NCBI GenBank assembly: GCA_003285105.1
Contig: CP030158.1
Location: 2,084,501 to 2,148,500 of the forward strand
DNA: 64,000 nucleotides
Source of the DNA: Roseithermus sacchariphilus
GTDB lineage: Bacteria; Bacteroidota; Rhodothermia; Rhodothermales; MEBIC09517
Reading direction: 5' to 3'
The notes under the pieces were generated by a model that saw nothing but the letters and a program-made list of their open reading frames with translations, was not told the DNA's origin and searched no databases. Shown in pieces: positions 25,170 to 41,530 of this stretch (position 1 is its first letter; every line of letters begins with the position of its first letter). Made by a program: the position numbers and the translations under genes.

Positions 25170-27749
25170 ATGCCTCGTTCGTTTTCGTGGTGCCTGCTGG
25201 GCCTGCTGGGCCTGCTGAGCCTGTGGATGCCGGTGGCCCTGCCGGCGCAGGATCTGCCCTCTATCGCCGAGAAAACCGCCGGATTCGAGAAGCAAGACGG
25301 CTTTTTCCCGATCTACTGGGATGCCCGGCAGGGGAAGATCTGGCTGGAGATCCCCCGGTTCGGGGAAGACGCCGCCTTCCTGTATGTCCACTCCCTGCCG
25401 GCCGGTCTGGGGTCGAACGACGTGGGCTTGGACCGGGGCCAGCTCGGCGAGGAGCGGGTGGTCTACTTCGAGCGCGTCGGGCCGAAGGTGCTGCTCGTGC
25501 GCCCCAACCTGCGCTACCGCGCCGTCTCGGACGACGAGGCGGAGCGGCGGGCCGTCCGGGACGCCTTCGCCGAGGGCGTCGAATGGGGGTTCACCGTGGC
25601 GGCCGAGACGGACGGCCGGGTGCTGGTCGACGCCACGGACTTCGTCGTGCGGGACGTACACCGCATTGCCGACCGCCTCCGGCAGACGAACCAGGGCAGC
25701 TTCCGTCTGGATGCCGGCCGCAGCGCGCCGTACCTGCCGATGACGAAGGCCTTTCCGCAAAACACCGAGATGGAGGCCCGCCTGACGTTCGTCAGCGACA
25801 ACCCGGGGCGGTACGTGCGCGACGTGGCGGCCGATCCGTACGCCGTCACCCTGCGCGTCCGGCACTCGTTCGTGCAGCTGCCCGGGCCGGGCTACGAGCC
25901 GCGCGCCTTCGACCCGCGCGCCGGCTACTTCGGCCTCAGCTACGGCAGCGGCGTGGCCTACGTCGACTACGCCCGGCCCATTCCCGAGGACAAAGAGGTC
26001 CGCGTCATCTCGCGGCACCGGCTGGCCTGTGCCGGCCCGCGCGGCGCCGACGGCCTGTGCGACCCCGTCGAGCCGATCGTCTATTACCTGGACCCCGGCA
26101 CGCCCGAGCCCGTCCGCAGCGCCCTGCTCGACGGGGCTCGCTGGTGGAATGACGCCTTCACGGCCGCGGGCTACCGGGACGCCTTCCGCGTGGAGGTGCT
26201 GCCGGACACGGCGGACATGATGGACGTCCGCTACAACGTCATCCAGTGGGTCCACCGGGCCACCCGCGGCTGGAGCTACGGCTCGTCGGTCGTGGACCCC
26301 CGCACGGGCGAGATCATCAAGGGCCACGTCACGCTCGGCTCGCTGCGGGTGCGGCAGGACTACCTGCTCTTCGAGGGGCTGCTGGCGCCCTACACCGGCC
26401 CCCATGCCGACGGCCTGCCGGATCCGGCCGCTGATCCGATGCTGCAGACGGCCCTGGCCCGCCTGCGGCAGCTCTCCGCCCACGAGGTCGGCCACACGCT
26501 CGGGCTCGTGCACAACTTTGCGGCGTCGTTCAACGACCGCGCCTCGGTCATGGACTACCCCGCCCCGCTGGTCACCGTCGATGCCGACGGGCAGATCGAC
26601 CTCTCGGACGCCTACGACACGGGCATCGGTGCCTGGGACGAGATCGCCATCCGTTACGGGTACACCGACCTGGCCGACACGACGGACGAGGCGGCGGCGT
26701 TGGAGGCGATCCTGCGGGAGGGCCGGGAGCAGGGGCTGCTCTTCATCACGGACACCGATGCCCGCCCGCCGGGCGGGGCGCATCCGGTGGCGCACCTGTG
26801 GGACAACGGCACGAACGCGGTGGAGGCGCTCCGGCAGGAGATGCAGGTGCGCCGCGTCGCGCTGAATCGCTTCGGGCTGGCGAACATCCGTACCGGCGAG
26901 CCGCTGGCGACGCTGGAGGAGGTGCTCGTCCCGCTCTACCTGCGGCATCGCTACCAGGCCGAGGCCGCCGCCAAGCTCGTCGGCGGTGTCTCGTACACCT
27001 ATGCCCTGCGCGGCGACGCCCAGCCCGTCCCGACGGCCGTGCCGGGGGACCTGCAACGCACGGCGGTGGACGCGCTCCTGCAGGCGATCACGCCGGACCA
27101 GCTGGCGCTGCCGCAGAACATCCGTACGCAGATCCCGCCTCGCCCACCGGGCTACCCTCAGAACCGCGAACTCTTCGACGGTTACAGCGGCCTCGTCTTC
27201 GACCCTTATGCCCCGGCCGAGACGGTGGCCTCGCTCGTCCTGGGCCTGCTCGTCCACCCCGAGCGGGCGGCCCGGCTCGTCTACCAGCACGACGCCGACG
27301 CGGACCTGCCCGGCCTGAGCGAGACGCTCACCCGCATCTCGGCCACGGTGTGGGAGGCGCCCATCCCCGCCGATCCCTATGCGGCGGAACTCCAGCGCCT
27401 CGTGCAGCAGGTGTGGACGGACGTGCTCATCGAGACGGCCGCCCGGCCCGACGCGGCCCCGGCCGTCAAGAGCCGCATCACCCAGCACCTGCGGGCGCTC
27501 CAGGAGTGGCTGACGGAGAACCCCGGCCCGCGCCGCGACCTGGAGACGCAGGCGCACCGCCTCTACGTCTTCGACCAGGTGGACCGCTACCTGCTCCGTC
27601 TCTACCGGCCCGACGAGCGGCGCACCGGCCCGACGACGCCCCCCGGCTCGCCCATCGGCCAGGACGACGAGGGGGTCTTCCTCCGCCAGGAACGCCGCCG
27701 GGCGTGGCTGGACCGGTGGACCCCGGCCTGGTCATGGTGCGGCCATTGA
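25170..27749 (+). CDS. Zinc-dependent metalloprotease (DUF5117/DUF4953 type)
   Basis: 859 residues with a signal peptide ending LPAQD. An N-terminal DUF5117-like domain (about residues 75-300) precedes a metzincin-like catalytic domain whose zinc site is HEVGHTLGLVHNF (HExxHxxGxxH, near residue 442), followed by a Met-turn-like ASVMDYP. The C-terminal half is helical (DUF4953-like). These proteins are widespread secreted metalloproteases of Bacteroidota with unknown substrates. The gene starts 41 bp after the haem-binding-domain gene and probably shares its transcript. It converges with the outer-membrane protein gene ending at 27798. Confidence 0.92.
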   Translation: MPRSFSWCLLGLLGLLSLWMPVALPAQDLPSIAEKTAGFEKQDGFFPIYWDARQGKIWLEIPRFGEDAAFLYVHSLPAGLGSNDVGLDRGQLGEERVVYFERVGPKVLLVRPNLRYRAVSDDEAERRAVRDAFAEGVEWGFTVAAETDGRVLVDATDFVVRDVHRIADRLRQTNQGSFRLDAGRSAPYLPMTKAFPQNTEMEARLTFVSDNPGRYVRDVAADPYAVTLRVRHSFVQLPGPGYEPRAFDPRAGYFGLSYGSGVAYVDYARPIPEDKEVRVISRHRLACAGPRGADGLCDPVEPIVYYLDPGTPEPVRSALLDGARWWNDAFTAAGYRDAFRVEVLPDTADMMDVRYNVIQWVHRATRGWSYGSSVVDPRTGEIIKGHVTLGSLRVRQDYLLFEGLLAPYTGPHADGLPDPAADPMLQTALARLRQLSAHEVGHTLGLVHNFAASFNDRASVMDYPAPLVTVDADGQIDLSDAYDTGIGAWDEIAIRYGYTDLADTTDEAAALEAILREGREQGLLFITDTDARPPGGAHPVAHLWDNGTNAVEALRQEMQVRRVALNRFGLANIRTGEPLATLEEVLVPLYLRHRYQAEAAAKLVGGVSYTYALRGDAQPVPTAVPGDLQRTAVDALLQAITPDQLALPQNIRTQIPPRPPGYPQNRELFDGYSGLVFDPYAPAETVASLVLGLLVHPERAARLVYQHDADADLPGLSETLTRISATVWEAPIPADPYAAELQRLVQQVWTDVLIETAARPDAAPAVKSRITQHLRALQEWLTENPGPRRDLETQAHRLYVFDQVDRYLLRLYRPDERRTGPTTPPGSPIGQDDEGVFLRQERRRAWLDRWTPAWSWCGH

Positions 27750-27797: not shown

Positions 27798-30221
27798 TCA
27801 GAACACCCGTGCCAGGCCGGCGCCGAGGCTGAAGTCCCGAGCGTCGAGGCGCCAGGTGGCGTCGAGGCGTAGCAGGCCGAAGAGCCCGCTCAGGGAGACG
27901 CCCAGTTCGTGATGCCAGCGCGGCGGTACGAGGCCGTCGTAGCGGGCATCTCCGCGGCGGCGGCCGTCGAGCCAGGTGCGGCCGTGCCCGCCATGCAGCA
28001 GGAGGTTGTAGCCGCGCCGGGCCAGGCCGTACAGGTTCAGCAGCTCGAAGGGCACGGCGCGGAAGCTGTGCTCCCAGAACACCCCGGCGAAGCGGTCGCC
28101 GAGGTAGGGGCGGCCCGCACGGGTGCGTAACCGCCCGAAGGACGTCAGGTTCAGCGCCCCCCCGCCCAGGCTGCCGTCGAGGGCCATCAACCGCTGGAAG
28201 GGCACCGGCCCGGCCGACGTGCCCGCGTAGAGGCGCACGTCCAGCGTGGGAGGGATGAGCCGGCGGCGCAGGAACGTCTTCAGCCGCACGTCGAGCGTGG
28301 CGTGCAGGCGGGTGAACGTGAAATCGCCTCCGAACACCTCCCGGTCGGCCCACTCGGCATTCAGGACGAAGCGGTTGCCGCCGGCGAGTCCCACGGGGTC
28401 CACGTCGTCGCCCAGCGCCAGGGCGAACGTGGCCGAGCGGAGCCGGCCGGGGTCGACGGCGGGGTTGGGCCGGAAGGGGGCGTCGCGGCCCCGCAGGTCG
28501 TAGTCGGTCGTCTTCGCCGCCGGTACGTGCCGTTCGGCCCGGCCGCCGAGTTCGACCGTCAGCGGCACGCCCGTGCCCTGCACGCGGTGCCGGACCCATC
28601 CGCGCACCCGCTCGACGCGGCCGTAGTCGAGGTAATCGTCTCCGCCGGCGAGCACGCGCAGGCTGTTGGCGAGGATGCCGGTGACGGTCGCCGGCGTGTT
28701 CGGGTCGATGCCGTAGCGGTAGGCGAGGCCGGCGTGCGTGCGGCGGCGGAGGGGCAGTTCCATCCGCCCCCCGTAGGTCAGCGTTCCGGGCCCCGTCTGG
28801 TAGCCGGCCTCCACGGCGAGGGCGACCGGCCCGAGGCGGCGACCCAGCCGCAGCCCGAGATGCCCGCCCTCGACGCGGTTGTACCAGAGCCGGGGCGTCA
28901 CGTCCGGCCCCGGGCGGCGGCTTCGCTCGGCGTCCGCGCCGTCGCTTATCTCGGCGATCCGTGCCAGCGCGCCGCTCGGCCGGAAGGCCTGCTCCAGCGT
29001 CATCGTGCTGTCGATCTGCGCGTAGGCCACCCGCTCCGGCTCGGACAGCGGGATCGCCACGCCGCTCCGGTCGAGCAGCGAATCCGCCCGAGCGGTGGCC
29101 CGAGCGGTGGTCCGGGCCGCGGCCGAGTCGGCCGGAGGGGCGGGCGAGGGGGCGAACAGCGAGTCCGGCAGGCGCACGTCCAGGTCGTAGTTCGTCAGCC
29201 GCGAGACCTGATCGACGTAGATGGCCGGGATCTCCAGCAGCCGGCCCAGGCGGATCTCGAGGACCGTCTCGGCCCGGAAGTCGACGGGCAACCAGGCTTC
29301 GCCGCCGAAGGAGGAGAACTGCTGCCGGTAGGTCGCCGTCAGGCGCTCGATGGGCCGGGGGAAGTAGAAGGCCGGGCCGGGCTGCAGCTCCGCTTCCAGC
29401 AGCGCGTAGGCCTCGCCCAGCACCGCCACCCGCCCGACGAACCCGCTGACGAACCGGTTTCGGGGCCGCACGCCGATGTCGTAGACGATCTGCCCGTCGA
29501 GCGCCCGCGTGCCTTCCAGCGTGAACGTGTAGGCCTCCAGCGCCTTCGGGTGGGTCACCCCGATGAGTCGGTGGCCGGCCACCTCGACGTCGTCGTCGTA
29601 CAGGTTCAATACGAACTCGGCGGCCGGCAGGAACGCGTCGATCTCCAGGTTGGCCGTCGTACGCCGGGCCTGCACGACTTCTTTCAGGCCTTTCTCGCGA
29701 TCCCAGTAGACCCTGGTGAGGGACTCGATGATGGAGACGATGCCGGTGTCGTTGCGGATGGTGAAGCGGTTGTAGGCCTCGGCCCGGTACTGGTCGAGCG
29801 TCGCCCGCCATTGCTGTTTCCGCTCGATGACGCGCCGCATGATGGCGGCGGCCGGGTTCTCGCCGGTCACGACGATGCCGTCCAGTTCGAGCGGGACGGG
29901 GTCGAGCCGGACCGTCAGCGTCCCGACGGGCGGGCCGGACAGCCCTACCCGGTGGGTCGCGTAGCCGATGTAGCGGACGACGAGCGTGGCCGGCCAGCGG
30001 GGCACGTCCAGGGCGAAGCGTCCCTCGCGGTTGGTGATGGTGCCGATGTAGGTGCCCTCGACCTGGATCGTCGCCGCCGGCAGCGGCTCGCCCGTGTCGC
30101 CGTCGACGACGCGCCCGGTGACGGTCGGCTGGGCCGCTGCCGGCGGTGCCGTCGGAGCGGCCGCGACGCAGAGGAGGAGCGGCAGGCAGGCACGGAGGAG
30201 CCGGGAGAACGGAGGGCGCAT
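27798..30221 (-). CDS. Outer-membrane protein: carboxypeptidase-like regulatory domain plus DUF5686-like region
   Basis: 807 residues with a signal peptide ending AAAQP. Residues about 33-115 form a carboxypeptidase regulatory-like (CarboxypepD_reg-like) beta-sandwich: TVTGRVVDGDTGEPLPAATIQVEGT and RYIGYATHRV. The middle part matches the DUF5686 pattern (VIERKQQWRATLDQYRAEAY) common in Bacteroidota. The C-terminal 350 residues are alternating beta strands ending in Phe (LGAGLARVF), as outer-membrane barrels do. It is paralogous to the gene at 34237-36621 and closes the same run of minus-strand genes, 37 bp behind the flavoprotein. Its place at the cell surface suggests transport or assembly; the exact role is unknown. 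Confidence 0.88.
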   Translation of the reverse strand: MRPPFSRLLRACLPLLLCVAAAPTAPPAAAQPTVTGRVVDGDTGEPLPAATIQVEGTYIGTITNREGRFALDVPRWPATLVVRYIGYATHRVGLSGPPVGTLTVRLDPVPLELDGIVVTGENPAAAIMRRVIERKQQWRATLDQYRAEAYNRFTIRNDTGIVSIIESLTRVYWDREKGLKEVVQARRTTANLEIDAFLPAAEFVLNLYDDDVEVAGHRLIGVTHPKALEAYTFTLEGTRALDGQIVYDIGVRPRNRFVSGFVGRVAVLGEAYALLEAELQPGPAFYFPRPIERLTATYRQQFSSFGGEAWLPVDFRAETVLEIRLGRLLEIPAIYVDQVSRLTNYDLDVRLPDSLFAPSPAPPADSAAARTTARATARADSLLDRSGVAIPLSEPERVAYAQIDSTMTLEQAFRPSGALARIAEISDGADAERSRRPGPDVTPRLWYNRVEGGHLGLRLGRRLGPVALAVEAGYQTGPGTLTYGGRMELPLRRRTHAGLAYRYGIDPNTPATVTGILANSLRVLAGGDDYLDYGRVERVRGWVRHRVQGTGVPLTVELGGRAERHVPAAKTTDYDLRGRDAPFRPNPAVDPGRLRSATFALALGDDVDPVGLAGGNRFVLNAEWADREVFGGDFTFTRLHATLDVRLKTFLRRRLIPPTLDVRLYAGTSAGPVPFQRLMALDGSLGGGALNLTSFGRLRTRAGRPYLGDRFAGVFWEHSFRAVPFELLNLYGLARRGYNLLLHGGHGRTWLDGRRRGDARYDGLVPPRWHHELGVSLSGLFGLLRLDATWRLDARDFSLGAGLARVF

Positions 30222-30258
30222 GGGCAGGGCGGCGGTGACGGCGGCGGGGTCGTGCGGA

Positions 30259-31758
30259 TCAGGGACGGGCCGCGGTGTGGTGATACAGGTTCGGCAGGGC
30301 GGGGTGAAAGAGGCCGACGGTGTTGTAGGGCGCGATCCGGGTTTCGACGAACGCCTCGTAGGCGCGGACGGCTGCCGGGGTTGCCGGCCCTCGCCGCGTC
30401 AGGTCTTGCAGGCGGGCGAGGGCCTCCCCGACGAGGGCGAGGAGCGCGTCGTCGTCGGCGCCGAGGAACAGGCGATCCGGTGCGGACGGGGCCTGCATAC
30501 GCGCTTGCTCGTAGGAGGTGACGGCGGCAAAGTAGAGCATGGCGCTGGCGATGTAGAGCCGGAACGTGCCGGAGGCGGCGTAGCAGGCCGCCACGAGCGC
30601 ATCGATCAGGTCCAGCTCCCGTTGCAGCGCCGCGTCGTAGGCGCTCAGCGCCGCGCCGAGGGTGGGGCGCCCCCAGTGGGCGGCCAGCAGGCGCATGAGC
30701 CGTTCGATGCCGGCCAGCGTGTGGGCGATGCCGGTGCTGTGCAGGGGATCCACGAAGCCGGCCGTGTGGGGCAGCAGCGCCCAGGTGGGTCCGGCCGCCG
30801 GCCGGACGCGCCGCTGCAGGCGTCCGGTGTGCCGGATGCCTCCCGGCGGGTGGGCCACGGCGGCCTCGTCCAGTTGCTCGCGCAGCGTCGGGAAGGCGGC
30901 GACGAGGCGCTGCCACGCGGCCTCGGGCGGTTCGCCGGGGCGCTCCGGCCGGCGCCTCGCATCGAGCACGAAGCCGGCGCTGACGACGCCGTGGTCGAAG
31001 CGGAGTTGCCACATCCAGCCGCCGTCGAACACGTGGTGGAGGGCGGCGGCGTCGGCCTCGAAGGGGTGCTCCGCCACCGCCCCGCCGCGTTCGGCCAGCA
31101 TCTCGGGCCAGCGCCGGACGCCGATGAGGTGGGTGAAGAGCGCGCGCGAGTGGGTCCGGAAGCCGGCGGCACTCGCCGCCCGCCCCAGCGCGCGCGGCAC
31201 CACGCCCGCCGCCCCCGTCGCGTCGAGGACGAAGCGCGTGCGCAGTCGCACCGGCGCCCCGTGCCGCGTGCCCTCGATCCGCCAGCCCGCGTCCTCGGGC
31301 CACAGCCGGACGGCCGTGTCGTCGAGCAGGGGAATGCCGGCGCGGCGCACCTCGTCGGCGAAGAAGGCATCGACGTCGGCGCGGTACCAGTGCGTGTCGC
31401 ACGCCTCGTCGCCGGCGCTGGCGGCCACGAGCAGCTCGTTGGCGTGATCGGCCTCCGGGACGTAGGGCGTGCCGGGGTGATGGTAGAAGTAGCTGAACCC
31501 CCGCTTCCGCCCGACGCCCAGGTGCGGGTACGTGCGTTTCCACGAGCCGTAGGCGGCCAGCGGCGCCAGGCGCGGCAGGGCGTACCGCGCCGCCAGATCG
31601 CGCAGGATCCGGTCGGCGATGGGGGTGGACGACTCGCCGATGGCGAACCGGGGGTGTGTGGCCCGGTCGATCACCACCGGCTCCAGGCCGATCCGCTGCA
31701 GGATCAGGGCACTCAGGCATCCGCCGAAGCCGGATCCGAGGACGACGACGTCTGACAC
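30259..31758 (-). CDS. Halogenase-like FAD-dependent oxidoreductase
   Basis: 499 residues from a GTG at 31758, placed directly before the dinucleotide-binding motif VVVLGSGFGGCLSALILQR; an ATG 23 codons upstream is possible. Features shared with flavin-dependent tryptophan-halogenase-like and related hydroxylases are GESSTP (near residue 46, where halogenases have GEAT/GEST), a Trp motif GGWMWQLRF (near 257) that resembles but does not match the WxWxIP of true halogenases, and AGFVDPLHSTGI (near 332). It would oxidise or halogenate an organic substrate using reduced flavin. It is the third enzyme of a cassette with a radical SAM protein and an AsnB-like ligase. Halogenation itself is not established. 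Confidence 0.75.
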   Translation of the reverse strand: MSDVVVLGSGFGGCLSALILQRIGLEPVVIDRATHPRFAIGESSTPIADRILRDLAARYALPRLAPLAAYGSWKRTYPHLGVGRKRGFSYFYHHPGTPYVPEADHANELLVAASAGDEACDTHWYRADVDAFFADEVRRAGIPLLDDTAVRLWPEDAGWRIEGTRHGAPVRLRTRFVLDATGAAGVVPRALGRAASAAGFRTHSRALFTHLIGVRRWPEMLAERGGAVAEHPFEADAAALHHVFDGGWMWQLRFDHGVVSAGFVLDARRRPERPGEPPEAAWQRLVAAFPTLREQLDEAAVAHPPGGIRHTGRLQRRVRPAAGPTWALLPHTAGFVDPLHSTGIAHTLAGIERLMRLLAAHWGRPTLGAALSAYDAALQRELDLIDALVAACYAASGTFRLYIASAMLYFAAVTSYEQARMQAPSAPDRLFLGADDDALLALVGEALARLQDLTRRGPATPAAVRAYEAFVETRIAPYNTVGLFHPALPNLYHHTAARP

Positions 31759-31847
31759 CGATCTACGCTCGTGTTGTGCATGTCGAAAAAACCCGGCGTC
31801 CGGAGCGAGGCCGCGCAGGTCCCGCACGCCCTCCGCCTGCTATCCCG

Positions 31848-32801
31848 TCAACCGGCCATCGCACAGGGGCCTGCACACCGAACCGGCGGCAGGATCGTCT
31901 GCGTGAGGTTCATCCGGTGGAGGCGTTCGCGGCGGGCCGGGCCGCAGCGGTCGCACTCGAAGAAGCGTTCGGCATCCCACAGGTCCACGAACACCCGCCC
32001 CCGCCGCAGGCGCAGTCCCGCCTCCAGGACGCGCTCCAGCGAGGCCAGGCGCGGCGGCTCGAACAGCCCCTGCGCCGCCAGCCGCTCCAGCATGCCGTTG
32101 CCGGGGCGGGTCGGGATGACGACGCCGCACGCGACGCCGGCGTCGAAGGCCCAGGTGAGGCTGCGCAGCGCCCAGTCGATGCCCTCGGCCTCGCTCAAAA
32201 AGGGCGGCCGCAGCAGGATGAAGGCCCGCACGGGGACGTCGTGCGCACGCAGGAAGGCGACGGCCCGGGCATAGTCCTCCAGCGTCATGCGCTTGTTGAG
32301 GCGCGGCAGCACCTCCGGGTGTACCGTCTCCAGCCCCATCGCCACTTCGAGGCGGCCGGCGAGACGGTCCCGGAAGCGCAGCACCGCTTCGCCGCAGAGC
32401 CGGGGGTGGTTCTCCACGATCACCGTGGCGAACCCCTGCACGCGGTCGGCGATGGCGGCGTGGTCCGCCGGCGGGATGGCCCGGCGGTCGAAGAAGTTGC
32501 CGCTGTTGTAGAGCTTGACGTGCCGGGTCGGCGGCAGGCGGGCGAGGGCGTGGTCGATCTGAGCCGGGATGGCGCCCGCCGGGACGGTCGCCTCGGTGGT
32601 GTGCCGCCACAGGTCGCACATCAGGCAGCGGAACGGGCACTCGCGGTTGGTCAGGAAGAGGGTGGCCACCTCCTCCACGCGCCCGTCGGGCTGGCACTCC
32701 GGCTCGGTCAGGAAGGCATAGGGCCGCCAGGGGTCGACCGGCCGGCGGGGCGGGCGGGCCGCCAGGATCTCGGCATCCGAAAACGACGGCCAGGCAGGCA
32801 T
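31848..32801 (-). CDS. Radical SAM protein
   Basis: 317 residues. The iron-sulfur motif CPFRCLMC (CxxxCxxC, near residue 55) sits in ATLFLTNRECPFRCLMCDLW, typical for SAM radical enzymes. Downstream are KLYNSGNFFD, ENHPRLCGE and MGLETVHPEVLPRLNKRM, the pattern of the Elp3/MiaB-like radical SAM barrel around the SAM-binding strands. Three further Cys (CDRCG near 286 and the C-terminal CAGPC) might bind a second cluster, although no SPASM domain is recognisable. The start at 32801 gives a normal N-terminus 14 bp after the ligase gene stop. The substrate is unknown. The family may be close to uncharacterised Fe-S oxidoreductases of the COG1244 type; this is tentative. Confidence 0.8.
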   Translation of the reverse strand: MPAWPSFSDAEILAARPPRRPVDPWRPYAFLTEPECQPDGRVEEVATLFLTNRECPFRCLMCDLWRHTTEATVPAGAIPAQIDHALARLPPTRHVKLYNSGNFFDRRAIPPADHAAIADRVQGFATVIVENHPRLCGEAVLRFRDRLAGRLEVAMGLETVHPEVLPRLNKRMTLEDYARAVAFLRAHDVPVRAFILLRPPFLSEAEGIDWALRSLTWAFDAGVACGVVIPTRPGNGMLERLAAQGLFEPPRLASLERVLEAGLRLRRGRVFVDLWDAERFFECDRCGPARRERLHRMNLTQTILPPVRCAGPCAMAG

Positions 32802-32815
32802 CGCAGGCAGGCCGG

Positions 32816-34141
32816 CTACAGGTACAGCGCGGCGAAGGCCTTCCGGTAGGCGGCCTCGTGGCGCGGGAAGAGCTGTTCGAAGCGTTCCTCCGGGACCACG
32901 CCCCGCTGGAAGCGGCGCTTTTCGAAGACCGGCATGTCGAAGCCCGTCACGGCTTTGATGCCGCGGCGGACGACCTCTCCCTTGAGCGCATAGAGCCGCT
33001 CGTGGTCCCAGTCGGTCAGTTCGATGAAGGGGATGCCCTCGGCCACCTCGATGACGCTGGGCACGGTGTACGGGCTGAAGCCCTGGAAGCCCATCTGGCG
33101 GGCCGGGGCGTAGCTGCGCACGTGCCCCCGGCTCTGGCCGCCGGAGTAGGTCAGCGAGTGTTTGATGGCGTCCACCCCCCAGCCCTCCTGGTACAGCATC
33201 AGGTTGTTCAGCACGCTGCGGATGGTCAGCTCCGGGTTTTCCTCGATGGGGTAATCCTTCAGGTTCTCGTCCCCGCCGTCGCCGTCGACCAGGTACGTCC
33301 AGTCGGGGTAGCGCGCGCGGATGCCCCGGCAGAGGGCCAGCGTCATCGTGGCCGCCTGGACGTCGAGCGGCTTGTAGTCCTCCACGACGCGGATGGCGTC
33401 CCGGTAGTCGAGGTCTTCCAGCGCCACGTCGATCGTCTCCAGGAAGAGCGACAGGCCCAGGGCGTCGAGGAAGCGGTGGGCCTGTGCCGCGTCCGCCGCG
33501 CCGGGCGTCGCCAGCGTGAAGGCTTTGAGCCGCGTGGGGGCCTCGCCGCGCTGGAGCAGCAGGTGGTAGAGCGTCAGGAAGACCGATCCGCTGTCGATGC
33601 CGCCGGAGAACAGCACCCCGATCGGGGCCTTCGGGTCGATGCGGTCCAGCCACCGGGTGCAGGCCTCGGCCAGCGCCCCGATGTAGGCCCGGCCGATGAC
33701 GTCGAGGTCGGGTGGCAGGGCGTTGCGCTCGGGGGTGAAGAAGCGCCGGTAGGTCGGGTTCGGGTCCGGGCAGCCGACGAGCTGGATCTCGACGATGTGG
33801 TGGGCCGGCACCATGCGCGTGTAGGACGGGTGGAACTGGTCGTCGAGCCCCTCGGCCTGGAGTTGCCGGTGCAACTCGTCGATGCGCTCGGCGATGACCA
33901 GGCACGGTCCGGCCTCGCGCTTGGCGAGGAAGTAGCGCATCGGGCGGCCGATGGAGCGGGCCATCCGCACGGTGATGCCGTCTTTGTGGACGAGGGCGAA
34001 CTGCCCGTCCAGGGCGCGGACGCGGTCCGGGTCGCCGGAGGCCAGCGCCGCCCGGGCTTCGTCCGGGGAGGCGTTGAGGAAGACATTGCGGGCCGGGTCG
34101 ATCAGATTGACCACGCGCTCCACGTAGGCGGTCGTGGGCAT
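32816..34141 (-). CDS. Asparagine-synthetase-like ATP-dependent ligase without catalytic glutaminase
   Basis: 441 residues. The PP-loop for ATP is FSGGIDSGSVF (SGGxDS, near residue 184), followed by a second binding stretch TYLVDGDGGDENLKDYP (near 290; the family D-G-x-G-D-E). The N-terminus begins MPTTAYVERVVNL, so the Cys at position 2 needed for the glutaminase of true AsnB is missing, and the first 150 residues look like a degenerate class II amidotransferase fold. Homologues of this type (beta-lactam synthetases, lasso cyclases and similar) adenylate a carboxylate to form an amide or ring. It is encoded 14 bp upstream of the radical SAM gene. It probably works with that enzyme and the flavoprotein. 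Confidence 0.82.
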   Translation of the reverse strand: MPTTAYVERVVNLIDPARNVFLNASPDEARAALASGDPDRVRALDGQFALVHKDGITVRMARSIGRPMRYFLAKREAGPCLVIAERIDELHRQLQAEGLDDQFHPSYTRMVPAHHIVEIQLVGCPDPNPTYRRFFTPERNALPPDLDVIGRAYIGALAEACTRWLDRIDPKAPIGVLFSGGIDSGSVFLTLYHLLLQRGEAPTRLKAFTLATPGAADAAQAHRFLDALGLSLFLETIDVALEDLDYRDAIRVVEDYKPLDVQAATMTLALCRGIRARYPDWTYLVDGDGGDENLKDYPIEENPELTIRSVLNNLMLYQEGWGVDAIKHSLTYSGGQSRGHVRSYAPARQMGFQGFSPYTVPSVIEVAEGIPFIELTDWDHERLYALKGEVVRRGIKAVTGFDMPVFEKRRFQRGVVPEERFEQLFPRHEAAYRKAFAALYL

Positions 34142-34236
34142 GACGTCGGTAGGTCGGGCGGTGAATGGGGCCGGTGGGGGGAGGAAGATAGCAGGCCCGG
34201 GCGCCGGAGGCAAAGGGCGCCCGGCCGGGCGGCGGC

Positions 34237-36621
34237 TCACCAGGGCAGGCGGGAGAGGCCGACGGTCACGAACCAGCCGGGGGCGTCGAGGCGGCGGGTC
34301 AGGTCGAGGCGCAGCGGCGTGCCGGCGAGGTGGGTGAGGGCGAGGCCGATCTCGTGGTGCCAGGCATCGGCGACGGCCGGGGAGAAGGGCAGGGCGGCCC
34401 GCCGGGCGTCGGCGAGCCAGGTGCGGCCGTGTGCGCCGAAGAGGCGGAGCCCCATCCGGCGCTCGGCCAGCGGCCAGAGGCCGAGCCATTCGAACGGGGC
34501 GGTGCGGAAGTCATGCGCCCAGAACAGCCCGAGGGCCTGTTCGCCCTCGTAGGGGCCGCGGCGGCCCCGGAAGGCGCCGAAGGCCGCGAAGGCACCGAGG
34601 CGGCCGTCCAGCGCGGCGAGCCGCTGCGGCGGGAGCGTCCCGCGGAACGTCGCCCCGATCAGCCGCACCTCCAGCGTGTTGGGTTCGAGGCGGCGGCGGT
34701 AGAAGGTGGGCACGGCGCCGTCGAGGTGCGCGGTGAAGCGCGTGAAGGCCCAGGTGCTGCCGGCGCCGGGCAGGCTGTGCTCGACCTCCAGGGCGAGGCG
34801 GTTCAGCGGCCCGGTGCGCAGCGGCCGGCGGCCATCGCCCGTCGCCAGCGCCAGCGTCACGGAGCGCAGCGTGCCTGCCTCGACGGGCGGGTTCGGCCGC
34901 ATCGCCTCGCCCAGCCAGGCCCGCCGCTGCCGGCGGTCCACCGGCTCCTGCTCCTCATGCCGCACCGTCAGCCCGAGCCGCACGCGCGGGAACGCATAGC
35001 GCCCCTCGACGCGGAGCCGCCGCGACCACAGGTAGTCGAAATAATCGCCGCCGCCGAGCAGCGCGACGAGGCTGTTCAGCCCGGTCGGATACACGTGCGA
35101 GGCGAGCCGGTGGTCGGTGTCCACGTCGTACGCCGCCGCCAGCGTGCCGCCCCGGCCCCAGCGGTAGCGCCCGCCCGCGTGGTAGCGCACCCGCTCCAGC
35201 CCCGACGCCTGCCCGAGCCGCCAGTCCAGCCGCAGCCGTTCGCCGAAGGGCAGCACCTGCCCGATGGCGCCGAGGTAGCCGTCCACCCGGTTGAACCGCA
35301 CGGCGGCCTGGTACACCCCGCGTACGACCGGCCAGGCAAACTGCGGCCCCTCCTTGTCGAACGGGTCGCCTCGCAGGTCCAGCCACGGGGGGATGCGCGA
35401 GGTCGGCGCCAGCGCCCGGGCGAGCGTCATCGGCCGGGCCTGCAGACGCTCCAGAGCCTGCGCCTCGCGCGGCGTCATCGGCACGAGGTAGCGGCCCGTC
35501 AGGAACAGCGGGTCGCTCATCACCGCCGCCGTGTCCATCGTCACGCGCTGCGCCCGGGCATAGAGGGCCTCGGGCAGCGGCACGTTGACGGCGTGTCCGG
35601 ACAGCTGCGACACCTGGGTCAGGTGGAACGGCCGGAGCGGCTGGCCGTCGGGTTCGACGTGGGCCGTCCCCTCCAGCCGGGCGTCGATGGGCAGCCAGAT
35701 CCCCTCCACCGGCGCGAACTGCTGCCGGTAGAACACCGCCCAGGCCCGCGTCGGCGCCGGGAACGGCACATGCCGGGCCGGGCGCAGGGTGGCCTCGACG
35801 AGCGCGTAGACGCTGTCCAGCACGGAGACGGTGCCGATGAAGGTCGGCGCCAGCGTGGTGCGGGGCGCCACGTAGAGGTCGTAGACGACGGCGTCGCCGA
35901 GGGCCCGGGTGCCGGCGAGCGTGAAGGTGTAGTGGTCCAGCGCGTCCGGGTGGGTTGGCCCGATCATCGACAGGCCCCGCACGGGGACGAGGTCGGCGTA
36001 GAGGTTTGGCACGTGCCCGGCCGCAGGGATGCCGAGGCGCTCGTGGAAGTCGGCCGTTTGCCGCTGTGCGGTGATGACCTCCCGCGGGCCGCGGTCACGG
36101 TCCCAGTACACGTCGAAGACCGACTCGGCGATGAGCACCACGGTGGAGTCCCGTGCCAGCGTCAGCCGCGTGAAGCCGTCGGCGCGGTACGTGCGCAGGC
36201 CGGCCTGCCGGCGCTGCTTCGCCGCGATCACCTTGCGCATGATGTTCGCCGCCACGTCGGGCGTGCCGACGACCACCTCGCCGAGCTGGTAGACGCGCGG
36301 CTCCAGCCGGATCGTCAGGTCCTGCCACCGCTCCGGCGTCGCCTCGGCCCGCGCCGTCGCATAGCCGATGTGGCGGACCTCCAGCGTGACGGGCAGCCGG
36401 GCCACGTTCAGCCGGAACGCGCCCGCCGCGTTCGTGATGGTCCCCGTCGTCGTGCCGGCCACGGTGACGTGTGCGGCGGCCAGCCCCTCGCCCGTGGCGT
36501 CATCCAGCACCCGGCCCGTCACCAGCACCTGGGCCAGGGCCGGAACCGGCACGGCAAGGAGCAGGATCAGGATGGTCGAAGGACGTAAGACGAAGGGGGG
36601 GATAGCGAACCGTTTTCTCAT
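34237..36621 (-). CDS. Outer-membrane protein: carboxypeptidase-like regulatory domain plus DUF5686-like region
   Basis: About 794 residues from the ATG at 36621 (MRKRFAIPPFVLRPSTIL), giving a signal peptide ending PALAQ; an ATG at 36657 is the alternative and overlaps the spacing to the DUF2807 gene. Order of parts: CarboxypepD_reg-like domain (LVTGRVLDDATGEGLAAAHV, RHIGYATARA), a DUF5686-like segment (KVIAAKQRRQAGLRTYRADG) and a long beta-strand-rich C-terminus ending FVTVGLSRLPW, where the closing Trp replaces the usual Phe of outer-membrane barrels. It is paralogous to 27798-30221 with the same architecture and length. It lies 95 bp upstream of the AsnB-like ligase. Transport of the cassette product is possible but not shown. 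Confidence 0.86.
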   Translation of the reverse strand: MRKRFAIPPFVLRPSTILILLLAVPVPALAQVLVTGRVLDDATGEGLAAAHVTVAGTTTGTITNAAGAFRLNVARLPVTLEVRHIGYATARAEATPERWQDLTIRLEPRVYQLGEVVVGTPDVAANIMRKVIAAKQRRQAGLRTYRADGFTRLTLARDSTVVLIAESVFDVYWDRDRGPREVITAQRQTADFHERLGIPAAGHVPNLYADLVPVRGLSMIGPTHPDALDHYTFTLAGTRALGDAVVYDLYVAPRTTLAPTFIGTVSVLDSVYALVEATLRPARHVPFPAPTRAWAVFYRQQFAPVEGIWLPIDARLEGTAHVEPDGQPLRPFHLTQVSQLSGHAVNVPLPEALYARAQRVTMDTAAVMSDPLFLTGRYLVPMTPREAQALERLQARPMTLARALAPTSRIPPWLDLRGDPFDKEGPQFAWPVVRGVYQAAVRFNRVDGYLGAIGQVLPFGERLRLDWRLGQASGLERVRYHAGGRYRWGRGGTLAAAYDVDTDHRLASHVYPTGLNSLVALLGGGDYFDYLWSRRLRVEGRYAFPRVRLGLTVRHEEQEPVDRRQRRAWLGEAMRPNPPVEAGTLRSVTLALATGDGRRPLRTGPLNRLALEVEHSLPGAGSTWAFTRFTAHLDGAVPTFYRRRLEPNTLEVRLIGATFRGTLPPQRLAALDGRLGAFAAFGAFRGRRGPYEGEQALGLFWAHDFRTAPFEWLGLWPLAERRMGLRLFGAHGRTWLADARRAALPFSPAVADAWHHEIGLALTHLAGTPLRLDLTRRLDAPGWFVTVGLSRLPW

Positions 36622-36660
36622 CCGGCCTGTGCCCATCTTCCTTCGACCGTTCGGCATGCG

Positions 36661-37386
36661 TCATTCCAGGGGTTCGATCGTGCCGGCGCCGAGCACCTTG
36701 CGGTCGATGGTCGGCGCGCCGAGGTAATAGACCGAGCCGCTGCCCAGGATGTTCACCTCCAGCCGGTCCCGCACGTGGACGGTGGCCGAGCCGCTGCCGG
36801 CGATGTTGACCTCGGCCGTCTCGCCCAGCAGCGCGCGGGCGTCCACGTCGCCGACGCCGGCCAGCGAGAACGACTGGCGGCTCGCCTTGCCGGTCAGCTC
36901 GACGTCGCCCGCTCCGGCGATCTCGACGGCCAGCTCGCGGGCCGAGAGGTCGGTCAGGCGGGCATCCCCGGCGCCGGCCACCGACAGGGTGAAGGCCTCC
37001 GTCTGGAGCCCGGCCGCCTCGACGTCCCCGGTGCCGGCGATCGTGACGGCGCGGAGGTCGTCGACGGTGAGGTGGAAGCGCAGGCCTTCGTGCGGGGTCA
37101 GGCGGGTGTTGTGCCGGGTGCGGATCTTCAGCGTGCGGCCGTCGACCTCGGTGAGGATGTGCTCCATCAGGTTCGCCTCGGCCTCGACGCGCAGCCCCTC
37201 GGTGCCGGTCTGCTCGATGACGAGATGCCCGGGCAGCGAGAAGACGACCTCGTCGAAGCCCCCGACGTCCCGCCGCTCTTCGATCAGGTCCCCCGAGCCT
37301 TCGATCTCGTTCTGCCCGACGTTGATGTGGATCTCACAGGCAGTCAGGCCCAGCGCCAGGATCAGGGAAAGCAGTAGCTTATGCAT
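36661..37386 (-). CDS. DUF2807 (head GIN) lipoprotein
   Basis: 241 residues with a lipoprotein signal peptide ending GLTAC. The rest is a right-handed beta-helix-like repeat of the DUF2807 family: recurring G-[ST/AG]-G-[DS] turns such as IAGTGDVEA, VAGAGDARL, IAGAGDVEL, LAGVGDVDA, IAGSGSATV and ILGSGSVYY. The beginning GSGDLIEERRDVGGFDEVVFSLPG is the usual start of the domain. Such proteins are predicted surface adhesins or sensors in Bacteroidota. It heads the minus-strand run 37386-27798 and its stop is less than 40 bp from the next start, so it may be the first gene of that operon. Confidence 0.88.
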   Translation of the reverse strand: MHKLLLSLILALGLTACEIHINVGQNEIEGSGDLIEERRDVGGFDEVVFSLPGHLVIEQTGTEGLRVEAEANLMEHILTEVDGRTLKIRTRHNTRLTPHEGLRFHLTVDDLRAVTIAGTGDVEAAGLQTEAFTLSVAGAGDARLTDLSARELAVEIAGAGDVELTGKASRQSFSLAGVGDVDARALLGETAEVNIAGSGSATVHVRDRLEVNILGSGSVYYLGAPTIDRKVLGAGTIEPLE

Positions 37387-38423: not shown

Positions 38424-39912
38424 GCAGACCCGTAGATGGATTCAGCGCGCACTTTGACCAGCAAACCCGGACGCGACCATGAAACGGCATACATACGTTT
38501 GGTTCTGCATTTTACTGGGAATTGGGCTTCTCCTGCAAACCCCCGCCCTGGGACAACGACCTGAGGTCCATTGGGAGATGGCAACCTGGGCACCGTGGAA
38601 ACCTGGCGGAGCCACTCAGGTTCAGGACAGCACGGGCGAGGACTGGGTCTACGACATCGAGATCAGCTACAGTGGTGGATCGCCGGACGGTTACATTTAC
38701 GCGGGATACACGACCTTCCCCGGATATCAGTTTCCCAGCGGTAGCTGGTCGTGCACGAACCTGACCAAGGGCTGTTCGATACCCAAGCTGTTCAAGGCCG
38801 ACCTGGAAGGCAATCTGCTCTGGTACAAACACTACAGCGAGAATGAGGGGGAGTTGACGGCCGTCATCCAAACCTCGGACGGAGGCTATCTGGCTGTGGG
38901 GCGCTCGCGCGAATGGGACACCCGCCTGACGTACTACGGCAAGACGAGTTCCACCAGCAACCTGAGTTGTTCCAGCAACTGCCAGTCCCTCCCCCGCAAC
39001 ATCTACGCCGTGAAAACCGAGGCCGATGGCACCGTGGAATGGGAAAAGCTCTATGGCCTCTCCGACACGCCCGTCGACAGTCTGAGTCTGCTCATTCAGT
39101 CCGCCGAAGCCTGGGACGTGGTGGAGATGGGGAGCGGTAACTTCCGCATTGTAGGTCAAGTGTTGGACCCCGACGACTCGGCCCGCGATTCCAACGGGGG
39201 CTACGTCACGAAGGCCTTCATGCTGGAGATCAACAGCAGCGGTGTGCGCCAGTGGATCAAAGCCTACGGGAACACCGGCAAAGCCAGCATCGCACGGGGC
39301 ATCGCGCGCGACGGCAACGATTACACGATGGTGCTCAACCAGTTTGGACAGGCGGAGTATCTCAGCACGAGTGCCTACGCAGACATATGGGTCTACAAGG
39401 TCGACAACTCCTCCAATCCCTCGCCCGCGTTCACGACACAGTTGACAAGTACCAGCACCCAACACGACTTCGGGTACGACGTCATCTACAATACCGCCGG
39501 GAATATCCTGGTTGCCGGTGTGATCAACTGCACGTACTCTGGCGGCTGTTTCAGAAGTGCAGGAGCAAATGGGGAAGGAACGGCACGTGTCTATCGACTC
39601 AGTTCAGGCGGAAGCGTTCTGGGAAATACGGGCAATAAGCTCGGGACGGTGAAGTCTTTCGACCTATGGGCTACAATGACACCAACGAGTGACGGAGGCA
39701 GCGCGTTCGTTTCAACAAAGCAACCCAATGGGCCTATTAATGTTAATTTACCTTTCTCAAATACCGATGCTTTCGTAGCCAAGCTCAATACCACAGCAAC
39801 CGACACGGCCTGGACCTTCATCTACAACGCGGAGACCACGAAAACACATCGGAATAATGACGGCTCGGATGCAGGGTTCACAAACCAGGAATGCCTCTAC
39901 GTCATCAGTGGT

Positions 39913-40909
39913 AATGCGAATTAAGAGTTGACTCCATGGTGTCCCGGGCGTTTAGAAGGAGATGACCCCTCACCTCCAACCAAACGCCCGAGAACCCCAT
40001 GGACTGGCAATATACGCTCATTCATCTGTTCCTCCACGTCTGTGAGCAGTATCAGCGCCGCCTCTGCGTCGTTGCCCAGCGCCTGAGCAACAACCACTCG
40101 CCGGCCTTCTCCGATGAAGAAGTCCTCACCGTCTACCTCTTCGGGCTCATGCGACAACGACGCACGCTGACCGACATTTACGCCTACGCCCGCGACCACC
40201 TGATGGCCTTCTTCCCCAAACTGCCCTCCTACGTGGCCTTCGTGCAGCGCCTCAACCGGCTGGCCGATGCCTTTCCCCTGCTGGTCGAGGCGGCGCTGGA
40301 GGCATGTCCGCACGAGTCCTCCGCGGAGCGCTCTGCGGAACCAACCGATTACATCATCGACTCTTTCCCGGTGGTGATGGCCCAGCAGAAGCGCTCGGCC
40401 TGGGCCAGGGTCGCTCCCCACATCGCAGGCAAGGGCTTCTGCGCCTCGAAGAACCTGTATTTCTACGGCGTGAAGGTACATGTCGTCGCACGGCGGCGTC
40501 CCGGCACGATGCCGCTGCCGCTCTACATCGGACTGGCTCCCGGCCCGGCCAATGACCTGACCGTGGCCCGCCAGATCCTACCGCGCCTGCACGAGGGGCG
40601 TCTCTTTGCCGATAAGATCTACGCCGACCGTGCGTTGAGCCAGCGGCTGGCAGCCGAGCAGAACCTGCACCTGTGCACGCCGGTGAAGAAGCGCAAGGGG
40701 CAGACCGATGTGCTGCTGACCGAGAAGGTGTACTCGCGGCGGGTCAGTCAGCGCCGGCAGCCGATCGAGTCGCTGTTCAATTGGATCGAGCAGAAGACGG
40801 GCATCGAGGTGGCCTCGAAGGTGCGTTCGTTCGAGGGCCTCTTGGTGCACGTCTTCGGGCGGCTAGCCGCGGCGATGTGGATCCTCGCGTTCTACCCTTA
40901 ATTCGCATT
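39913..40909 (+). mobile_element. IS982-like insertion sequence, 997 bp, with 3-bp target duplication
   Basis: The perfect 13-bp inverted ends are AATGCGAATTAAG (39913-39925) and its complement (40897-40909); similarity continues weakly further inward. The direct repeat GGT flanks both sides (39910-39912 and 40910-40912). One transposase gene fills the element, and its stop codon lies within the right inverted repeat. Size, single gene and short target duplication fit the IS982 group. Ends, frame and duplication are intact, so the insertion looks recent. Confidence 0.93.
39999..40901 (+). CDS. IS982-like DDE transposase
   Basis: 300 residues. The catalytic region is recognised by IDSFPVVMAQ (first Asp, near residue 123), an internal stretch KGFCASKNLYFYGVKVHV, a second Asp in LFADKIYAD (near 205) and a Glu-containing RRQPIESLFNWIEQKTGIE (near 257), i.e. 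a DDE nuclease. The IDSxPV and YFYGxKxH motifs are typical of IS982 transposases. The N-terminal helical region (LSDEE-like FSDEEVLTVYLFGLM) fits the same family. The frame is complete from ATG to TAA. The stop overlaps the right terminal inverted repeat. Probably functional, so further copies may exist in the genome. Confidence 0.9.
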   Translation: MDWQYTLIHLFLHVCEQYQRRLCVVAQRLSNNHSPAFSDEEVLTVYLFGLMRQRRTLTDIYAYARDHLMAFFPKLPSYVAFVQRLNRLADAFPLLVEAALEACPHESSAERSAEPTDYIIDSFPVVMAQQKRSAWARVAPHIAGKGFCASKNLYFYGVKVHVVARRRPGTMPLPLYIGLAPGPANDLTVARQILPRLHEGRLFADKIYADRALSQRLAAEQNLHLCTPVKKRKGQTDVLLTEKVYSRRVSQRRQPIESLFNWIEQKTGIEVASKVRSFEGLLVHVFGRLAAAMWILAFYP

Positions 40910-41530
40910 GGTAACAATAGCAGCAACTTCGATGACGACTACGTGGTCAAATTCAAAGACGCGACGTCCCAGACCGTATCCAACACCACCGTCGATCACG
41001 AGCACATCTACTACTACGGTCCCGACGATCTGACGATAGGCCCATCGTTTACGGTCGAGAGCACGGCCTACGTCGAACTGGTGGCAACAAACTCCATCAC
41101 GATAAACGGTCCCTTTGAGGCCAAGTTGGGCAGTGAGTTCGAGGCTGAGATCGACTCAGACTTCGGCATCCAGTCCGTGCGGCCTGGACCCGAATCCCTT
41201 GCCCCCTTGTTCGAGCCGGAGCCAACGGCTGGAGAGGATGACGTAGAGACACCCGAGGTCTATACACTCTCGGCGAACTATCCAAACCCGTTCAACCCGG
41301 CCACAGCGATTCGCTTCACCATTCCGGAGGCGACTGACGTGTCCCTCGTCATCTATGACGTAACGGGGCGGGAAGTCGCCCGGCTCCTCGACCGACCTCT
41401 GGCAGCCGGCACGCATCGCGTGATCTTCGACGCTACCGGCCTGCCCAGCGGTGTGTATCTGTACCGGTTGCAGGCGGGCACCTTCGTCAAGACGCACCGC
41501 ATGACGCTTATCAAGTGAGCGGAGGACGCC

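Follow-up and report, generated by a model that had tools for sequence, protein, structure and literature searches.

A co-inherited AsnB-like ligase, radical-SAM enzyme and halogenase-like flavoprotein in Rhodothermia and Planctomycetota as a candidate amide-forming and halogenating pathway

A three-enzyme locus

Three adjacent genes, encoding an AsnB-like ligase, a radical-SAM enzyme and a halogenase-like flavoprotein, form one co-inherited unit whose members group together far beyond chance. We put at about one in two the probability that they constitute a single, horizontally spread pathway combining amide formation, radical chemistry and halogenation, which would supply a small molecule or modified residue to an extracytoplasmic system. 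The set combines a PltM-type halogenase with a radical-SAM enzyme of RaSEA type and an amide ligase that lacks a glutaminase. Literature searches returned no description of the three enzymes together or of their product.

The window, that is, the whole stretch of 64,000 nucleotides analysed here (C1:2084501-2148500), lies in a genome consisting of one 4.81 Mb contig. Its minus strand carries, from 37386 to 27798, six co-directional genes: a DUF2807 lipoprotein-like gene (36661..37386; Pfam 1e-42), a gene for an outer-membrane-type protein with CarbopepD_reg and DUF5686 domains (34237..36657; Pfam CarbopepD_reg_2 + DUF5686), the genes for the predicted AsnB-like ATP-dependent amide ligase (32816..34141, 441 aa), the RaSEA/TIGR01210-like radical-SAM enzyme (31848..32801, 317 aa) and the relative of PltM/CTC7-type flavin-dependent halogenases (30259..31758, 499 aa), and a second gene of the CarbopepD_reg + DUF5686 type (27798..30221; Pfam CarbopepD_reg_2 + DUF5686). 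The gene order, strand and gaps of 14 and 89 bp given in an earlier note on this DNA were reproduced with a GTG start of the flavoprotein gene at 31758.

Co-inheritance of the three enzymes

The ligase was detected in 32 of 146 sampled Rhodothermia genomes, and the radical-SAM protein occurred in the same 32 plus a weak, partial match in one incomplete genome (G145). The halogenase relative gave 33 Rhodothermia matches, comprising 31 of the 32 ligase-bearing genomes, one genome (G126, 89% complete) in which the flavoprotein alone was found, and a weak match in G128; in the sole ligase-bearing Rhodothermia genome lacking it (G094), the contig ends just behind the radical-SAM gene. Among 149 Planctomycetota genomes, five encoded the ligase, and the radical-SAM protein was present in the same five together with one weak match elsewhere. 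Fisher tests of the co-occurrence of radical-SAM protein and ligase gave p values of 6e-33 (Rhodothermia) and 2e-9 (Planctomycetota), both over-optimistic due to kinship among genomes in these phylogenetically structured samples; ORF calling was mechanical. Presence and absence nevertheless recur within genera, with one genome of group g8 carrying the set and the other sampled g8 genomes lacking it. In addition, the radical-SAM protein was recovered in 14 of 15 ligase-bearing genomes from the scan of named genomes, also where its gene was unlinked to that of the ligase, and the halogenase relative in 18 of 19 further ligase-bearing genomes (those 15 and four more), often on other contigs. Across 53 loci, the pairwise divergences of the three proteins were correlated (Mantel r = 0.90 for each pair), and clustering of neighbouring genes by family placed the ligase in 110 loci, the radical-SAM protein in 80 and the halogenase in 64, followed by the next family in 18.

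The earlier note had read the three enzymes as one tailoring-type set, to be abandoned if they proved not to be co-conserved, and the profiles bear this reading out. That three unrelated housekeeping genes should stand side by side by chance would agree with the loss of their adjacency in part of the Planctomycetota, but the genes co-occur even where unlinked and diverge in step, and the profiles refute this hardly credible explanation.

Distribution and ligase phylogeny

At least 521 ligase relatives were retrieved in the named-genome scan, the best 80 of which belonged to Planctomycetota, Rhodothermales/Balneolaceae, Chitinophagaceae, Sphingobacteriaceae, Spirosomataceae and one Acidobacteria MAG. 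The ligase alone is thus represented by hundreds of homologous loci in at least two phyla, with no described product, and the hosts include cultured Fodinibius, Agriterribacter, Parafilimonas, Dyadobacter and Mucilaginibacter. Phylogenetic analysis of the ligase grouped the clade of the window with planctomycetes (support 95/82), apart from the Balneolaceae/Bacteroidia clade and from a long branch formed by f2, another, Rhodothermus-like family of the window's own order, and this placement suggests horizontal transfer. One genome harbored a second, more distant AsnB-like ligase copy (L073, G146:C1:7155722-7157038), together with a single radical-SAM gene of the family.

Predicted activity of the AsnB-like ligase

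The ligase matched Pfam PF00733 (Asn_synthase; 1.5e-13) with 51.6 bits against a cut-off of 21, and scored 38.9 bits against a cut-off of 267 for TIGR01536, the glutamine-hydrolysing asparagine synthase. Its N-terminal Ntn-like domain is truncated and, as the earlier note had claimed, devoid of the glutaminase Cys, with Cys at position 2 in none of 46 aligned rows. The ATP-pyrophosphatase core is intact, with S179, G180, G181, D183, S184, D291 and E292 conserved in 46 of 46 rows, and the SGGxDS motif, the GDGGDEN motif (D288-G-G-D291-E292) and K408 are likewise invariant in these rows. Judged from its surrounding motif, K408 would be the counterpart of the catalytic lysine of AsnB. D288 aligns with E348 of Escherichia coli AsnB; in beta-lactam synthetases and lasso cyclases, a Tyr-Glu dyad takes over the catalytic role of the AsnB Glu. 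The retention of an acidic residue at the E348 position leaves free ammonia as a possible nitrogen source, alongside the cyclisation or use of another amine that the earlier note had deemed necessary.

Structural comparison of the AF2 model of the ligase (pLDDT 84, with residues about 290-340 uncertain) gave matches of similar TM-score with AsnB, beta-lactam synthetase, carbapenam synthetase and the hydroxyamidotransferase TsnB9. With these enzymes the ligase shares the AsnB-type fold, the SGGxDS ATP-pyrophosphatase motif and the GxGxDE region, but it differs from all of them in its shortened, Cys-less N-terminal domain and in a highly conserved C-terminal substrate region of its own (mean column identity 65% across phyla). 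An AsnB fold without the glutaminase Cys, resembling beta-lactam and carbapenam synthetases in structure, could also belong to a RiPP tailoring cluster in which the ligase acts on a ribosomal peptide like a lasso cyclase or beta-lactam synthetase, and radical-SAM enzymes and halogenases are frequent RiPP tailors. Against this, no small ORF within 2.5 kb of the trio was conserved across lineages, and no leader-peptide or recognition domain appeared among the Pfam and NCBIfam matches of the trio. The nearby small ORFs showed lineage-specific synteny only and were rejected as precursors, in line with the earlier statement that neither a precursor peptide nor a scaffold enzyme accompanies the trio, and a ribosomal peptide substrate is considered very unlikely.

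Predicted activity of the radical-SAM protein

The radical-SAM protein (Radical_SAM 2.2e-8) carries the CxxxCxxC motif of the superfamily (C55, C59 and C62) in 41 of 41 rows, and a C-terminal set of cysteines (C283, C286, C309 and C313), which may bind a metal or an auxiliary cluster, in 35-39 of the 41. Its nearest curated family is RaSEA (NCBIfam TIGR01210, 7.9e-31), for which it scored 107 bits, short of the cut-off of 212. A PDB sequence search returned no credible relative, and the nearest solved folds to its AF2 model (pLDDT 96) were those of Elp3. Archaeal RaSEA acts with ArcS on preQ0-tRNA. Lysine is attached in this synthesis, and RaSEA, complexed with ArcS, brings archaeosine to completion (PMC11298593). 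By analogy only, this pair may be regarded as the nearest precedent for the ligase and the radical-SAM protein, as in both cases a TIGR01210-type radical-SAM protein stands beside an amine-adding enzyme; the present set differs in that the partner is an ATP-dependent AsnB-like ligase, an extra halogenase is present, the hosts are bacterial and the TIGR01210 score is half of the cut-off.

The kinship with RaSEA and Elp3, and the archaeal complex of RaSEA with a lysine-adding enzyme, would fit an archaeosine-like RNA modification in which the ligase joins an amino acid to a carboxylated nucleoside, with cleavage or carbon addition by the RaSEA/Elp3-like enzyme and completion of the base by the flavoprotein. 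We regard this as quite unlikely, given that the TIGR01210 cut-off is not reached, that the cassette contains no ArcS/TGT-like gene, and that the set is patchy within genera, which would be unusual for an RNA-modification gene.

Predicted activity of the halogenase-like flavoprotein

The flavoprotein (Trp_halogenase 5.9e-15) gave its best PDB profile matches with PltM (3e-74) and CTC7 (1.5e-64), a tetracycline 7-halogenase, both phenolic flavin-dependent halogenases. Its K85, present in 27 of 27 rows, aligns with K87 of PltM, whose K87A mutant is inactive (PMC6424973). Shared with both enzymes are the FAD fold over about 400 residues, the GxGxxG motif and the catalytic lysine within a GxKxGF region, whereas a divergent C-terminal region and the three-gene cassette with ligase and radical-SAM protein set the flavoprotein apart. 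It also departs from them in the WxWxIP motif, in which W248 and W250 are invariant but the IP is replaced, giving WxWxLR, such that hydroxylation instead of halogenation is possible.

An extracytoplasmic companion protein

The next neighbour family after the trio, found in 18 loci, consisted of large secreted-type FG-GAP/UnbV_ASPIC proteins. UnbV_ASPIC proteins as such are no exclusive partners of the trio: all 32 trio genomes contain them, but so do 66 of the other 114, and none occurred around the unlinked planctomycete copies of the radical-SAM and halogenase genes, loci that were checked for ASPIC only. One subfamily, of about 1150-1300 aa and secreted-type, carries an unannotated C-terminal domain (CTD) of ~440 aa, which begins with GSCP, shows about 42% identity between its Bacteroidota and Planctomycetota versions (alignment A7, comprising L107:14772-16109, L121:6065-7378 and 10 others), and has no match in Pfam or NCBIfam and no credible relative in a PDB sequence search. 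In three Bacteroidia families, represented by Chitinophagaceae, Mucilaginibacter and Dyadobacter, the CTD gene adjoins the trio behind the halogenase gene, in convergent orientation. It stands in divergent orientation in front of the ligase gene in three planctomycete contigs (L098, L121 and L143), which look like one planctomycete lineage.

In a set of 80 chosen genomes, the CTD was found in 31 of 32 trio-positive Rhodothermia and in all 19 other ligase-bearing genomes (50 of 51 in total; one of the 19, G148, showed the ligase only). The CTD was also present in 6 of 17 and 3 of 10 trio-negative genomes, which were hand-picked (Fisher 4e-6 and 8e-5, respectively), indicating that the trio nearly implies the CTD protein but not the reverse. 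The CTD protein is therefore a recurrent extracytoplasmic companion of the trio and need not be its client. Moreover, in many Bacteroidota-type genomes the CTD gene lies beside genes for an ASPIC protein of ~600 aa and an RnfD-like membrane protein of ~280 aa, and this block of three is conserved in L216, L217, L219, L223, L224, L226, L227 and L233, trio-less genomes included. One CTD protein is encoded in the window's own genome (L214, C1:967864-969168), at a locus remote from the trio and about 12 kb from a UnbV_ASPIC gene.

The adjacency and co-occurrence of the CTD protein and the RnfD-like membrane protein raise the alternative that the trio matures a protein-derived redox cofactor, with the flavoprotein modifying an aromatic side chain in the manner of QhpG, GoxB or LodB, the radical-SAM enzyme cross-linking or cleaving, the ligase amidating, and an extracytoplasmic protein, e.g., the FG-GAP/ASPIC-CTD protein, as client. 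The flavoprotein fold is related to that of these maturases, and QhpG likewise acts in a system containing a radical-SAM enzyme. In favour are also the flavoprotein's NCBIfam matches to QhpG, GoxB and LodB, although all fall far below the curated cut-offs; against stand its closeness to PltM/CTC7 and its retention of the halogenase lysine. A CTQ-like Cys-x5-Trp site in the CTD (GSCPxxxTW) was rejected, as the Trp is absent in many trio-positive Rhodothermia, leaving the candidate client without the conserved Cys/Trp pair of CTQ type. No residue pattern separating trio-positive from trio-negative CTDs was evident within Rhodothermia, where the domains look alike with and without the trio, and the differing residues are missing chiefly from distant paralogues in planctomycetes. 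Probed through the residues of the CTD, cofactor maturation gained no support, and it appears unlikely.

Proposed pathway

Returning to the preferred reading of an amide-forming, radical and halogenating pathway, the reaction order, substrates, product and role that we infer are as follows. The ligase would activate a carboxylate with ATP, presumably as an acyl-adenylate, and couple it to an amine not supplied by a glutaminase of its own; the RaSEA-like enzyme would then perform radical chemistry on the substrate or the conjugate; and the PltM-like enzyme would halogenate, or hydroxylate, an electron-rich aromatic ring. The end product would be either an aromatic amide bearing a halogen or a modified residue, with a probable role in the extracytoplasmic FG-GAP/ASPIC-CTD (and RnfD-like) system. 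A bolder version, tentative and rather doubtful, is that the trio makes a new halogenated cofactor or protein modification which is used by a complex of the FG-GAP/ASPIC-CTD and RnfD-like proteins and has become common to Bacteroidota-related lineages and Planctomycetota via gene transfer. The trio is small enough for reconstitution, leads to a large secreted protein with a new conserved domain, and opens a way to probe what bacterial CRTAC1-like FG-GAP/ASPIC proteins do.

Other neighbouring genes

The two DUF5686 genes bracketing the three enzymes had been put forward as possible parts of the same system. The neighbourhood comparison that confirmed the joint travel of the enzymes gave no such result for these genes: DUF5686 homologues occurred in 0 of 110 other ligase loci and DUF2807 was represented there by a single distant homologue, so the bracket is incidental and both families were ruled out as system parts. 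Genes for an FGGY kinase, a xylose-isomerase-like protein, Wzi, a tRNA methyltransferase and a chromate transporter were also frequent neighbours; different lineages have no such function in common, and these genes were set aside as apparent lineage synteny.

Just past the downstream DUF5686 gene, on the opposite strand, a met-zincin metalloprotease with DUF5117 and DUF4953 domains is encoded at 25179-27749 (+) of the window. On the other side, the region 38479-41518 (+) contains a DDE transposase gene (39999-40901) between an ORF without Pfam match (38479-39924) and a downstream piece with a Por_Secre_tail sorting domain (within 40673-41518), an arrangement suggestive of a type-IX-secreted protein whose gene was split by an insertion element.
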